Of a stretch of 41,037 nt of DNA, positions 3,218 through 25,990 are shown one piece after another. The notes beneath the pieces were generated by a model. The model was not told the origin of the DNA and made no database searches. It saw only the letters and a list, made by a program, of their open reading frames with translations. The translations under genes and the position numbers were made by a program. Every line of letters starts with the position of its first letter. The stretch's first letter is position 1. The DNA is from Clostridiales bacterium (GTDB taxonomy: Bacteria > Bacillota > Clostridia > Christensenellales > UBA3700): contig SVHF01000016.1 of assembly GCA_015055975.1 (NCBI GenBank), positions 1 to 41,037 on the forward strand. Reading direction: 5' to 3'.

Positions 3218-4363
3218 ATGGAAAACCAATTAAGCGAAGAACTATTACAAGCTATGGAAGTTCTAAAATCAAAAGCTCAAGACAATGTTATTTCAACAGA
3301 TGATGTTGAAGCATTAGGCTTGGATGTAGATACTAGAGTTAGTATTTGCTCTGAACTAAAAAAAGAAGGCTATGCTATTGAAGATACTTCAATGACAGAA
3401 TACGAAAAAAGCCTACTTGATGATATCGGTTCAGAAACAACAATTGATGACTCAGTTAAAATTTATTTAAAGCAAATTGGACAAGTAGCACTATTATCTG
3501 GTGATGAAGAAACAAAGCTTGCTGTTCAAATGAGAGATGCTCAAGAAGCAAAACAAGCACTAGAAAATCCAGATCTAACACCAGAGGCAAGAGAAGGTTA
3601 CGAAGCTGTTGTAAAGCAAGGTAATAAGGCTAGAAAGAGATTAATAGAAGCTAACTTAAGATTAGTTGTATCTATTGCTAAAAAATATGTTAACAAAGGT
3701 ATGCAATTCTTGGATTTAATTCAAGAAGGTAACATGGGCTTGATGAAAGCTGTAGAAAAATTCGATTACACAAAAGGATTCAAATTCTCTACATATGCTA
3801 CATGGTGGATTAAGCAATCAATAACTCGTGCTATTGCTGACCAAGCAAGAACAATTCGTATCCCAGTTCATATGGTAGAAACAATTAATAAAGCAGGAAG
3901 AGTTTCAAGACAATTACTTCAAGAATTAGGCAGAGAACCAACTCCAGAAGAAATTGCAGAAAAGATGGGCGTTCCAGTAGAGAAGATTAATGAGATTCAA
4001 AAGATTTCTCAAGATCCAGTTTCTTTGGAAAAACCAATCGGTGAAGAAGAAGACAGCAAGATGATTGACTTTATCGAAGATAATGATACTCCATCTCCAT
4101 CAGCATTATCTGAAGCAACAATGTTGAATGATAAACTAAACGAAGTATTAGCTACTTTAACACCAAGAGAAAATGAAGTTATAAGACGTAGATATGGTCT
4201 TGATGATGGTAAGCCAAAGACTCTAGAAGAAGTTGGAAGAGAATTCAACGTTACTCGTGAAAGAATCAGACAAATTGAAGCAAAAGCTTTAAGAAAGTTA
4301 CGTCATCCAGGTAGAGCTAAGAAGTTGAAAGATTTCTTAGACGAAGATTCTTATGAATATTGA
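3218..4363 (+). CDS. rpoD: RNA polymerase primary sigma factor (sigma-70/SigA)
   Basis: This is the primary sigma factor, which directs RNA polymerase to TTGACA/TATAAT promoters like those found through the window. The 381-residue protein has a short region 1.1, region 1.2 near 76-105 and region 2 near 143-215, including [16 protein letters not shown] and the -10 recognition stretch [17 protein letters not shown]. Region 3 spans about 225-300. Region 4 spans about 310-372, with [14 protein letters not shown] and the helix-turn-helix [20 protein letters not shown]. Its length matches Firmicutes SigA and lacks the large non-conserved insert of proteobacterial RpoD. The start codon follows the dnaG stop with no spacing, and its Shine-Dalgarno GGAGG is inside the dnaG end, which suggests coupled translation. 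Confidence 0.97.
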
Positions 4364-10750: not shown

Positions 10751-10919
10751 AAAGATAGCTTAAAGCACTCCATCATCACGATGACAGTTGAGAGGATCTT
10801 TTCCTTTTCAACCAGCTAAATTAATAACAAGTTTTAATTTAACTTCGGCGATAGTTCCTTTTGTTAGCACTTCTTGCAGCGTTTTTCCTAACTACTTATA
10901 ACGACCGCGCCTCTATAAA
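10732..10919 (-). ncRNA. Lysine riboswitch (L-box) upstream of asd-dapA-dapB
   Basis: Read on the minus strand, the aptamer closes with an eight-pair P1, TATAGAGG near 10918-10911 and CCTCTATA at 10741-10734. Between them the L-box landmarks appear in the right order: GGAAAAACGC, TCGCCGAAGT, GCTGGTT, CAACTGTCA and TGGAGTGCT. The downstream genes make lysine precursors, as expected. High lysine should shut the operon off. The expression platform is unusual: see the hairpin at 10719-10750 and the finding on its geometry. Confidence 0.93.
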
Positions 10920-10927
10920 CTGAGCAA

Positions 10928-23624: not shown

Positions 23625-23700
23625 GCTGGCGTAGCTCAGCTGGTAGAGCAACGCACTCGTAACGCGTAGGTCGCAGGTTCGAATCCCGTCGCCAGCTCCA
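23625..23700 (+). tRNA. tRNA-Thr (anticodon CGU)
   Basis: The 76-base cloverleaf starts with GCTGGCG, which pairs with CGCCAGC. It has D-stem GCTC/GAGC, anticodon loop CTCGTAA (anticodon CGT), T-loop TTCGAAT, discriminator T and an encoded CCA. Two stem positions are A-C mismatches: base 31 with 39 in the anticodon stem and base 51 with 63 in the T-stem. Both lie where common threonine tRNAs have T on the 3' strand. The gene is still likely to fold. A terminator follows within 12 bases. Confidence 0.93.
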
Positions 23701-23889
23701 TTAGAGTTAAGTATAGCTGATACGTAAGTATTGGCTATTTTTTCTTTTATAGGCATAAATACTGCAAATATTAATGATTTATAGGGTATTTCTACAATAA
23801 ATATAACAGTAGTAGTATATATATCATTTATATATAAAATTAAATCGTTAAATTATTATTAATCGTTAAATTACTACTTACTATATATA
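23699..23889 (+). repeat. Direct repeat copy A, immediately downstream of tRNA-Thr
   Basis: The segment begins with the last two bases of the tRNA CCA end (CATTAGAGTTAAGTATAGC) and matches 25688-25875 at roughly nine bases in ten by eye. It holds a terminator hairpin, the sequence AGTAGTAGTATATATA, and two TCGTTAAATTA units 18 bases apart. Weaker likeness continues to the CGTGACA and RGGTYA motifs downstream. It has no gene. The remainder up to the MATE gene (23890-24128) is A+T-rich and holds only the motifs listed separately. Confidence 0.85.
23713..23748 (+). terminator. Terminator after tRNA-Thr (copy A)
   Basis: ATAGCTGATAC pairs with GTATTGGCTAT around a GTAA tetraloop, 11 pairs, followed by TTTTTTCTTTT. 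In copy B the same stem has C-G in place of a T-G pair and a GCAA loop, so the structure is kept. Confidence 0.88.
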
Positions 23890-23933
23890 AACATACTATA
23901 AGAGAAGAAATATAAATTATATAAATACCCCCA

Positions 23934-23956: not shown

Positions 23957-24037
23957 GTTTTTTACTTTTTACTAATGCTATTAGTATGGCATTGTATTAA
24001 TTAGCTAGTATTTTTGTATATTGTATTTTAAAAGTGT

Positions 24038-24066
24038 AGGTTATTGACCTTCAAAAATGTAGGTTA
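24038..24066 (+). repeat. Two RGGTYA units 23 bases apart (copy A)
   Basis: AGGTTA occurs at 24038 and 24061 with AAAAATGT before the second. Period and core match the four-unit array in front of the ATPase gene (25991-26082), so this looks like a shortened relative of that array. Confidence 0.5.
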
Positions 24067-24128
24067 ATGAGGTTAAAAAGAAGAGCATTAGATAATCTGG
24101 TAGTTTGATTGAAAATGATTTCAAATAA

Positions 24129-24157
24129 TTGAATTTTAGCTCTAAAAATGATAAAAT
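24129..24157 (+). promoter_or_regulatory. Possible promoter of the MATE gene
   Basis: TTGAAT and TAAAAT are separated by 17 bases. Transcription would start near 24164, giving a leader of about 70 bases that contains the attenuator hairpin. A palindrome TTGAAA-ATGA-TTTCAA lies just upstream, near 24108-24123. Confidence 0.4.
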
Positions 24158-24192
24158 TTAAACATCTGATGAGTTGTTATCCTCTTGAATAA
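24148..24192 (+). CDS. Possible leader peptide of the MATE attenuator
   Basis: A 14-codon frame (MIKFKHLMSCYPLE) runs into the 5' arm of the attenuator hairpin; an internal ATG at 24169 would give MSCYPLE. A ribosome stalled here would cover the arm ATCCTCTT and keep the terminator open. There is no clear ribosome binding site, and the predicted promoter would start after the first ATG, so the frame may be fortuitous. Confidence 0.2.
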   Translation: MIKFKHLMSCYPLE

Positions 24193-24235
24193 CGTAAGTC
24201 CAGTCAGGGATTTTCGTTAGAAAGGGGATTTTTTT
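24179..24235 (+). promoter_or_regulatory. Attenuator hairpin overlapping the MATE ribosome binding site
   Basis: ATCCTCTT (24179-24186) pairs with AAGGGGAT (24222-24229). Inside, after a small internal loop, TAACG (24190-24194) pairs with CGTTA (24215-24219). The 3' arm is followed by seven T, the last of which touches the ATG at 24236. The same 3' arm contains the Shine-Dalgarno AAGGGG. The hairpin should therefore both end transcription and block translation unless something opens it. Confidence 0.7.
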
Positions 24236-25612
24236 ATGAACGAAAATAAAATGGGATCACACCCAATTAATAAAATATTATGGACTATGGGATTACCTAT
24301 GGTTTTTTCTATGGTGTTGCAGGCCCTTTATAATGTTGTAGACACAGTATTTGTAATCAATATGGGCGAAGAAGGAATTAAAGCAAATTTGGCTTTAACG
24401 TATGTCTTTCCAATTCAAATATTTATGATTGCAGTAGGCGTTGGAACTGGTATTGGTATAAATGCACTACTATCTAGAGCATTAGGTGAAGGTGATAAGA
24501 AAAAAATTGGATTAACACTTGGTAATGGTATTTTTGTAGGCACAGCGATTTATATTATATTTTTATTATTTGGTTTATTTGCCTCAAAATGGTTTTTATC
24601 TATTCAAACAAATGATGTAGAAATAATTAATATTGGAACTGAATATTTAAAAATAGTAACAATTTTGTCTTTTGGTGCTGTAGGGTTTAATGTGTTTGAA
24701 AGATTTTTACAAGCTACAGGTAAAACACAATATTCAACTATAGCCCAAGTTGCAGGGGCAGTAACTAATATTATCTTAGATTATATTTTTATTTATCCAT
24801 GTAAAATGGGTGTTGCAGGTGCAGCATATGCAACAATCATAGGACAAATTGTTTCATTATTAGTTGCTGTAATATTTCATTATTTCTTTAATAGAGAAAT
24901 TAAGCACGGAATAAAGGATATGGTTCCTAATAGAAGAATTATAGGTAGCATTTATAGGGTTGGATGGTCTGCTATGCTAATGCAAGCATTATTATCTATT
25001 AATATGTTTGTTATGATAAAAGTTTTTTCAATTACTCAGGACGCTGAAATAATAAATGGCACTTATGGTATATATTATAAAATTCAACAAATAGCTTTAT
25101 TTTCATGCTTTGGATTGAGTAATACTATAATTTCTTTGTTAGCATTTAATGTAGGATTAGGAAATAAAGAAAGAATAAAAGCGTGCATAAAGTGGGGCAT
25201 TATTGATACAATAATTGTTGCAGGAGTAATTACAATTATATTTGAATTATTCGCTAGTCCTATTGCTAATTTATTTGGATTAACTGCGCAAGGAAATAAT
25301 AAAGAACAAATAGTATCATTGTGTCAAACATCAATCAGGATTGCTTCAATTGGATATGTTTTCATGGCGATTTCGCTTGCAATACAAGGTATTCTTCAAG
25401 CGTATAGAAAATCAGTAACACCTTTATTTATCTCTTTGCTAAGATTAATAATCATAATTGTACCTATCGCTTTAATTTTTATTAACTTTGAAAATGCAAA
25501 AGATGTGATTTGGTGGGCATTCCCAATTACAGAAATACTAACTGCCGTTGTTTCATTAATACTATTAAAGTTTACAAAAGAAATAAAGGAGGCATACTCG
25601 ATTGAAGTATGA
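24236..25612 (+). CDS. MATE-family multidrug efflux transporter
   Basis: The 458-residue protein is a member of the MATE (MatE, NorM/DinF-like) family of Na+ or H+ driven exporters of cationic drugs and other small molecules. It has the expected twelve membrane helices in two halves. The N-terminal LWTMGLPMVFSMVLQALYNVVDT carries the typical start of helix 1 and 2, and the GVGTGIGINALLSRALGEGD loop is diagnostic. Length is normal, so the gene is intact. It lies alone between two direct-repeat copies downstream of tRNA-Thr, which suggests it was gained as a unit. The hairpin in front of it implies inducible expression. The substrate cannot be told from sequence. Confidence 0.9.
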   Translation: MNENKMGSHPINKILWTMGLPMVFSMVLQALYNVVDTVFVINMGEEGIKANLALTYVFPIQIFMIAVGVGTGIGINALLSRALGEGDKKKIGLTLGNGIFVGTAIYIIFLLFGLFASKWFLSIQTNDVEIINIGTEYLKIVTILSFGAVGFNVFERFLQATGKTQYSTIAQVAGAVTNIILDYIFIYPCKMGVAGAAYATIIGQIVSLLVAVIFHYFFNREIKHGIKDMVPNRRIIGSIYRVGWSAMLMQALLSINMFVMIKVFSITQDAEIINGTYGIYYKIQQIALFSCFGLSNTIISLLAFNVGLGNKERIKACIKWGIIDTIIVAGVITIIFELFASPIANLFGLTAQGNNKEQIVSLCQTSIRIASIGYVFMAISLAIQGILQAYRKSVTPLFISLLRLIIIIVPIALIFINFENAKDVIWWAFPITEILTAVVSLILLKFTKEIKEAYSIEV

Positions 25613-25687: not shown

Positions 25688-25875
25688 CATTAGAGTTAAG
25701 TATAGCCGATACGCAAGTATTGGCTATTTTTTCTTTTATAGGCGTAAATGCTGCAAATATTAATGATTTATAAGTAATTTCTGCAATAAATATGGCAGTA
25801 GTAGTATATATAGCATTTATATATAAATTTATATCGTTAAATTATTATTCGTTAAACTACTACTTACTATATATA
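25688..25875 (+). repeat. Direct repeat copy B, between MATE and ATPase genes
   Basis: This is the second copy of the tRNA-flanking segment, 1989 bases after copy A, starting with CATTAGAGTTAAGTATAGC. No other tRNA sequence precedes it. It keeps the terminator hairpin, the AGTAGTAG/CTACTACT arms and the two TCGTTAAA units, here 15 bases apart. The stretch 25876-25990 is A+T-rich, with the CGTGACA and AGTGACA motifs at 25916-25935 and no gene. Confidence 0.85.
25702..25737 (+). terminator. Terminator within copy B
   Basis: ATAGCCGATAC pairs with GTATTGGCTAT around a GCAA loop, followed by TTTTTTCTTTT. It would end transcripts coming from the MATE gene. Confidence 0.85.
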
Positions 25876-25990
25876 GGCATATATAAGAACATATTATTTT
25901 TAAAGTATACTCTTACGTGACAGATAATAGTGACATGCTTGATTAATGGATGAAATATGCATATCATATAAAAATCTTAATAGTAAAACT

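Follow-up and report, generated by a model that had tools for sequence, protein, structure and literature searches.

We propose that the leader of a MATE family efflux transporter gene in the window, by which we mean the whole 41,037-nucleotide stretch of DNA analyzed here, is probably a compact riboswitch of the ON type, from a class not described before, that senses a toxic compound. Sequence and comparison place the predicted transcription start immediately ahead of a hairpin of a kind that measures 32-42 nucleotides and whose bases are also needed by an intrinsic terminator. The gene itself (24236-25612, on the forward strand like all the leader features given below) encodes 458 amino acids, and its product is a MATE transporter by membership of TIGR00797 and PF01554, with the curated cut-off exceeded; the nearest solved structure by sequence is that of BH2163. 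A promoter scan places a sigma-70-like promoter at 24129-24157, made up of a -35 box TTGAAT (24129-24134), a 17-nucleotide spacer and a -10 box TAAAAT (24152-24157), from which transcription is predicted to begin at about 24164.

A preliminary description of this DNA had recognized a terminator hairpin ahead of the MATE gene, and the hairpin is real: each of its parts was located by direct reading, and the same fold was predicted by ViennaRNA within 24080-24260 (z = -2.9), with only one of 200 dinucleotide shuffles folding as well. The terminator spans 24179-24235. Its outer stem has eight pairs, one of them G-U, between ATCCTCTT (24179-24186) and AAGGGGAT (24222-24229), and its inner stem joins TAACG (24190-24194) to CGTTA (24215-24219). 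To these we add a third stem of six pairs that had escaped the earlier reading, AAGTCC (24196-24201) with GGATTT (24208-24213). Seven T at 24229-24235, the first of which pairs with A24179, adjoin the ATG at 24236, and the Shine-Dalgarno sequence AAGGGG (24222-24227) lies within the 3' arm of the stem. Also present is the short frame ending PLE-stop that had been seen to overlap the 5' arm; it occupies 24169-24192, with the letters ATG AGT TGT TAT CCT CTT GAA TAA and the translation MSCYPLE-stop. A simple terminator scan missed the hairpin because its stem is interrupted. The terminator is, moreover, only the OFF half of a switch.

The ON half is a second, aptamer-like hairpin of about 42 nucleotides at 24166-24207, which competes with the terminator and carries most of the conservation. 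In its general form the element is a 32-42-nucleotide hairpin with two short helices and an asymmetric internal loop in which GNGYN stands opposite GUAARUCCR. P1 is formed by the nucleotides just 5' of GAGUN pairing with those just 3' of GUAARUCCR, and P2 is the stretch between them, closed upon itself. In the window, P1 pairs CUGAU (24166-24170) with GUCAG (24203-24207), the internal loop consists of GAGUU (24171-24175) on its 5' side and GUAAGUCCA (24194-24202) on its 3' side, and P2 (24176-24193) is GUUAU-CCUCUUGA-AUAAC with an eight-nucleotide loop. The hairpin and the terminator share bases and are therefore mutually exclusive; the calculated folding energies are -21.5 kcal/mol for the terminator and -6.3 kcal/mol for the aptamer hairpin alone.

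The same leader anatomy was found in eleven MATE homologues of other genomes, and homologues 50-58% identical to the window protein have the same element in front. Two strands are conserved in their leaders, NGAGUNGC, which directly follows the -10 box, and GYGUAARUCCAR, which lies farther downstream, and the terminator alone does not account for them. Most relatives use the second strand as the terminator's 5' arm; in Roseburia sp. 831b and [Eubacterium] eligens it is the first strand that provides the terminator arm, while the second lies in the loop. Since the role of arm switches between the two strands, the conserved part is the competitor of the terminator and not the terminator itself. 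Comparison of homologous MATE leaders thus shifts the conservation from the terminator to the competing hairpin.

Both helices of the hairpin show strong covariation. In an alignment of 34 sequences without the window, eight of the nine pairs were changed on both sides and none of 500 shuffles reached the score, the rows having been pre-filtered for at least two P1 and at least two P2 pairs, which makes the counts lean towards structure. The same lean applies to an alignment of 64 copies that was fitted to the model, where all nine pairs were changed on both sides and sliding the partner destroyed the signal. The two P1 pairs adjacent to the loop were canonical in all 63 distinct rows, with five and three pair types. 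A test of P1 free of this lean, which took matches by sequence only with no pairing filter and contains a few spurious rows, gave 106 of 117 pairs, where 2000 shuffles gave 84 ± 3 and never more than 93. The internal loop varies little: across the 64 copies, G6, U39, A40, A41, C44 and C45 are invariant, G8 is kept in 63, and G38 and U43 in 62. Y9 and R42 form a pair in nearly all rows (UA in 30, UG in 26, CG in 5, CA never), which makes a short non-canonical stack within the loop probable. Two further interpretations of the conserved blocks were discarded. One had the 5' block form a pseudoknot with the terminator loop, and it was given up because the pairing is nested, in P1, and flanks the block. 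The other, a DNA operator, was rejected because the two conserved strands form no palindrome and lie at variable distances from each other, and because their flanks covary as pairs.

The first covariance model (R1) was built on the terminator form and found relatives, but it missed the window copy because the terminator of the window is built differently. It was later replaced by an aptamer model (R2) built from 34 other sequences, leaving out the window and its near-identical relative. In the 41-kb window R2 gave a single match, exactly at 24166-24207 (E = 8.7e-4), with all nine pairs canonical. With model R3, the window element was the only copy in its own genome (27.6 bits), and of 37 genomes in its own family exactly three have the element, the same three in which this MATE gene turned up, whereas the remaining 34 lack it. 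Gene-blind searches recovered it in 38 of 297 genomes of the order with R1, some of the weaker matches being due to chance, in 29 of 291 genomes of the class with R2 (around 10%), and in 5 of 229 genomes across the phylum.

The surroundings of the element recur together with it. A -10-like hexamer lies no more than 20 nucleotides upstream of P1 in 69 of 72 copies, mostly 4-8 nucleotides away, compared with 38 of 72 in a control stretch. A U-run terminator with at least five pairs to aptamer bases follows 70 of the 72, with the terminator fold the more stable in all 70; the aptamer strand used is the 3' strand in 53 and the 5' strand in 17. When the arms were shuffled, five cross pairs could still be formed in half of the shuffles, while the mean energy changed from -22.9 to -9.3 kcal/mol; the overlap of bases alone is weak evidence, and the energy difference is the stronger part. 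The two exceptions among the 72 are matches on viral contigs with neither promoter nor terminator and are probably chance. Viral contigs hold 38 stretches with the exact pattern, and among these contigs convincing copies with promoter and terminator were confined to the metagenome contig L142. Tandem copies, each with a terminator of its own, occur in [Eubacterium] eligens (L053, 1770-1803 and 1861-1894), in L074, and in L142 (4265-4298 and 4591-4625). Those of [Eubacterium] eligens, which in strain ATCC 27750 stand ahead of EUBELI_RS11270, and those of L074 precede MATE genes, and in L142 the first copy stands before a short open reading frame and the second before a MATE gene. Two marks of a riboswitch are therefore found here, namely a conserved and structured 5' UTR aptamer with covariation, and an expression platform exclusive with that aptamer, whose bases the terminator shares in 70 of 72 copies.

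The element stands ahead of drug pumps in many gut Clostridia. Exporters make up about 85% of the 73 genes found downstream of it: 54 encode MATE transporters of two subfamilies, 6 MFS transporters, and 2 ABC exporters. The remainder comprises three CarD genes, three genes for proteins with a Cu-amine-oxidase N domain, single genes for UvrA, TetR, and a cytidylate-kinase-like protein, and two genes that were left unclassified. CarD-like transcription factor genes follow the element in L102, L109, and L111 (L122, L125, L126). Genes for Cu-amine-oxidase N-terminal domain proteins, an odd partner for drug exporters, follow it in L118, L127, L128, and L129, where L127 and L128 were assigned by eye and where the domain is fused to esterase-type domains (PF20434, PF00756) in L118 and L129. 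The uvrA gene occupies 587-3231 of L115, with a recA-like gene further downstream (open reading frame at 3735). Exporters fit a small toxic molecule, and UvrA and CarD would fit a compound that causes stress. The mixed set as a whole, with exporters, CarD, UvrA, surface proteins with the Cu-amine-oxidase N domain, and TetR, does not point to one metabolite, which counts against the riboswitch reading.

The element and its gene show signs of moving as a unit. Positions 24024-25595 of the window are 97.3% identical to 2789-4360 of L009, a metagenome-assembled genome from a different assembly titled Acholeplasmatales bacterium RUI103, and outside this block no similarity was found between the window and the L009 locus. 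This suggests a recent transfer of switch and pump. An intergenic repeat of some 200 bp, in two direct copies that are 90-92% identical (23699-23895 and 25688-25881), flanks the MATE gene with its leader, a layout such as insertion of a cassette or duplication of a flank would leave. Switch and pump probably travel together, to judge from these similarities. No near DNA match was found in phages, and no relative of the window MATE protein on viral contigs.

Ribosome-stalling leader-peptide attenuators control resistance genes in Firmicutes. The preliminary description had proposed that a drug that slows ribosomes opens the hairpin, for which an antibiotic would have to stall the ribosome on MSCYPLE. 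Like the erm and vmlR attenuators, the window leader stands before a resistance-type gene and has a terminator and a Shine-Dalgarno sequence in a stem, and the frame at 24169-24192 does exist and does overlap the 5' arm. Unlike in those systems, however, no leader peptide is conserved: NCG stands where the start codon would be in 30 of 64 copies, and of the 34 copies with a start, 14 have no in-frame stop inside the element while the remaining frames end after 3-11 codons. The predicted transcript, moreover, leaves about 5 nucleotides before the ATG, with no Shine-Dalgarno sequence. What is conserved is RNA pairing and a non-coding internal loop, and the seeming start codon lies within P1 and the loop of this RNA. 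We judge the frame to be a by-product and not a leader peptide, and stalling on it is highly improbable; the terminator would be opened by the competing hairpin, formed by upstream sequence, and not by a translating ribosome. A plain constitutive terminator or attenuator that senses nothing, and whose conservation reflects recent common descent, would agree with the terminators that follow 70 of the 72 copies examined in detail and with a window block 97% identical in a second genome. It is scarcely credible, however, given that both loop strands hold constant, in dozens of families and ahead of genes of unrelated types, where the helices vary freely.

The hairpin might alternatively be an antiterminator bound by an RNA-binding protein, of the BglG/LicT RAT type or another, with the protein sensing the drug and stabilizing the hairpin. 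RAT antiterminators (BglG/LicT, SacY) are hairpins of about 30 nucleotides with one or more conserved internal loops, which overlap a terminator and are bound by CAT-domain proteins. By analogy, the size and logic of the element are those of a RAT, with an imperfect hairpin of about 30 nucleotides, a conserved internal loop, and overlap with a terminator, and the mixed target genes fit a small regulon. Yet a search of 26 genomes, of which 25 carry the element, found no CAT_RBD domain (BglG family), while positive controls were matched; ANTAR proteins are absent from 15 of the 25 element genomes, no regulator gene recurs beside the elements, and the unit of gene and element looks mobile on its own. 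We consider a protein antiterminator unlikely, if worth keeping in mind. A further candidate is the known guanidine-IV riboswitch, or else its Gd4v variant; the two are found ahead of MATE genes and share the regulatory logic and gene type seen here, Gd4v being gut-enriched as well (PMC7736828, PMC9788692). Such an identity is very improbable, since those RNAs are about 95 nucleotides long with two hairpins and a loop-loop pseudoknot, as against one nested covarying hairpin of 32-42 nucleotides here; R3 matched nothing in 30 loci around SMR (sugE-type) genes; and the 73 downstream genes, two of them unclassified, include no sugE/SMR or transaminase class.

A riboswitch of a new class remains the reading we prefer, and comparison with known systems bears on its novelty. 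None of the 4227 families of Rfam 15 matched the element, whether in the window or in those relatives that were scanned, at gathering or permissive thresholds, and no description of the element was found in Rfam 15 or in the text of open papers, a search that leaves figures, supplementary alignments, and subscription journals outside its scope; novelty is thus probable. (The window also holds a lysine riboswitch at 10755-10923 on the minus strand, Rfam RF00168, 90 bits.) The HMP-PP (thiS motif) riboswitch is a very small terminator-embedded aptamer, mutually exclusive with the terminator and acting as an ON switch (PMC6478431). Our element resembles it in small size, exclusion with a terminator, and ON logic; the thiS motif, however, consists of P1 and a possible pseudoknot, shares the terminator tip as P2, and precedes only thiamin-pathway genes, whereas ours is a nested hairpin with an internal loop and has exporters downstream. 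Guanidine-IV (GGAM-1, mepA motif) is an antitermination ON switch often found before MATE or SMR exporters in Firmicutes (PMC7736828, PMC12186494), with two hairpins, a kissing-loop pseudoknot, a length of about 95 nucleotides, and sugE as its commonest gene (PMC7736828). It shares with our element ON antitermination and MATE genes, but here there is one hairpin and no sugE was seen. Gd4v is an orphan variant of guanidine-IV, gut-enriched, with a terminator platform and some MATE genes downstream, and it has the guanidine-IV architecture plus an extra hairpin on the terminator, with PRK07324 transaminases downstream in over half of cases (PMC9788692). Orphan status, MATE genes, and terminator are alike in the two, but the architecture differs and no transaminase was seen downstream of ours; guanidine-IV and Gd4v were set apart here by their published descriptions, not by consensus figures or alignments. 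In one further locus, L037, an SMR gene is preceded at about 1380-1480 by two hairpins and a terminator, a leader that might be a guanidine-IV riboswitch.

Terminator and aptamer exclude each other and the terminator is the more stable, so the riboswitch would be OFF by default and ON when the hairpin is held. In the absence of ligand the terminator would form and transcription would stop ahead of the exporter gene. A small toxic molecule may bind the hairpin at its conserved internal loop while the RNA is leaving the polymerase, and the aptamer so held would block the terminator arm and let transcription run into the exporter, which would then remove the molecule sensed. The earlier suggestion that a small molecule opens the terminator stands as far as a terminator before a MATE exporter is concerned, and opening by a molecule is probable. 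Dual control of transcription and translation, also suggested, finds a counterpart in structure only: the readthrough RNA of the window copy, if refolded, may also be poorly translated, with its Shine-Dalgarno sequence in the 3' arm of the terminator, but this placement is peculiar to the window copy and L009. Elsewhere, in the leaders inspected by eye, the Shine-Dalgarno sequence follows the U-run, and translational control, if present, is therefore a local addition.

More tentatively, and with somewhat less than even confidence, we suggest that the element represents a widespread riboswitch class in Clostridia, at 32-42 nucleotides among the smallest, in which one toxic compound, possibly an antibiotic or a host or microbial gut product, may be sensed directly by RNA as a xenobiotic and turn on a regulon in which unrelated multidrug exporters are joined by CarD, UvrA, and surface proteins. 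The class would add a very compact antitermination design, with the aptamer within the first 45 nucleotides of the transcript and a terminator that can be built from either of two conserved aptamer strands. To our knowledge, the natural substrates of most multidrug exporters are not known. An RNA that controls unrelated MATE, MFS, and ABC exporters would report a molecule that gut bacteria treat as a threat, and a hairpin of about 40 nucleotides offers a ready binding assay for finding it.
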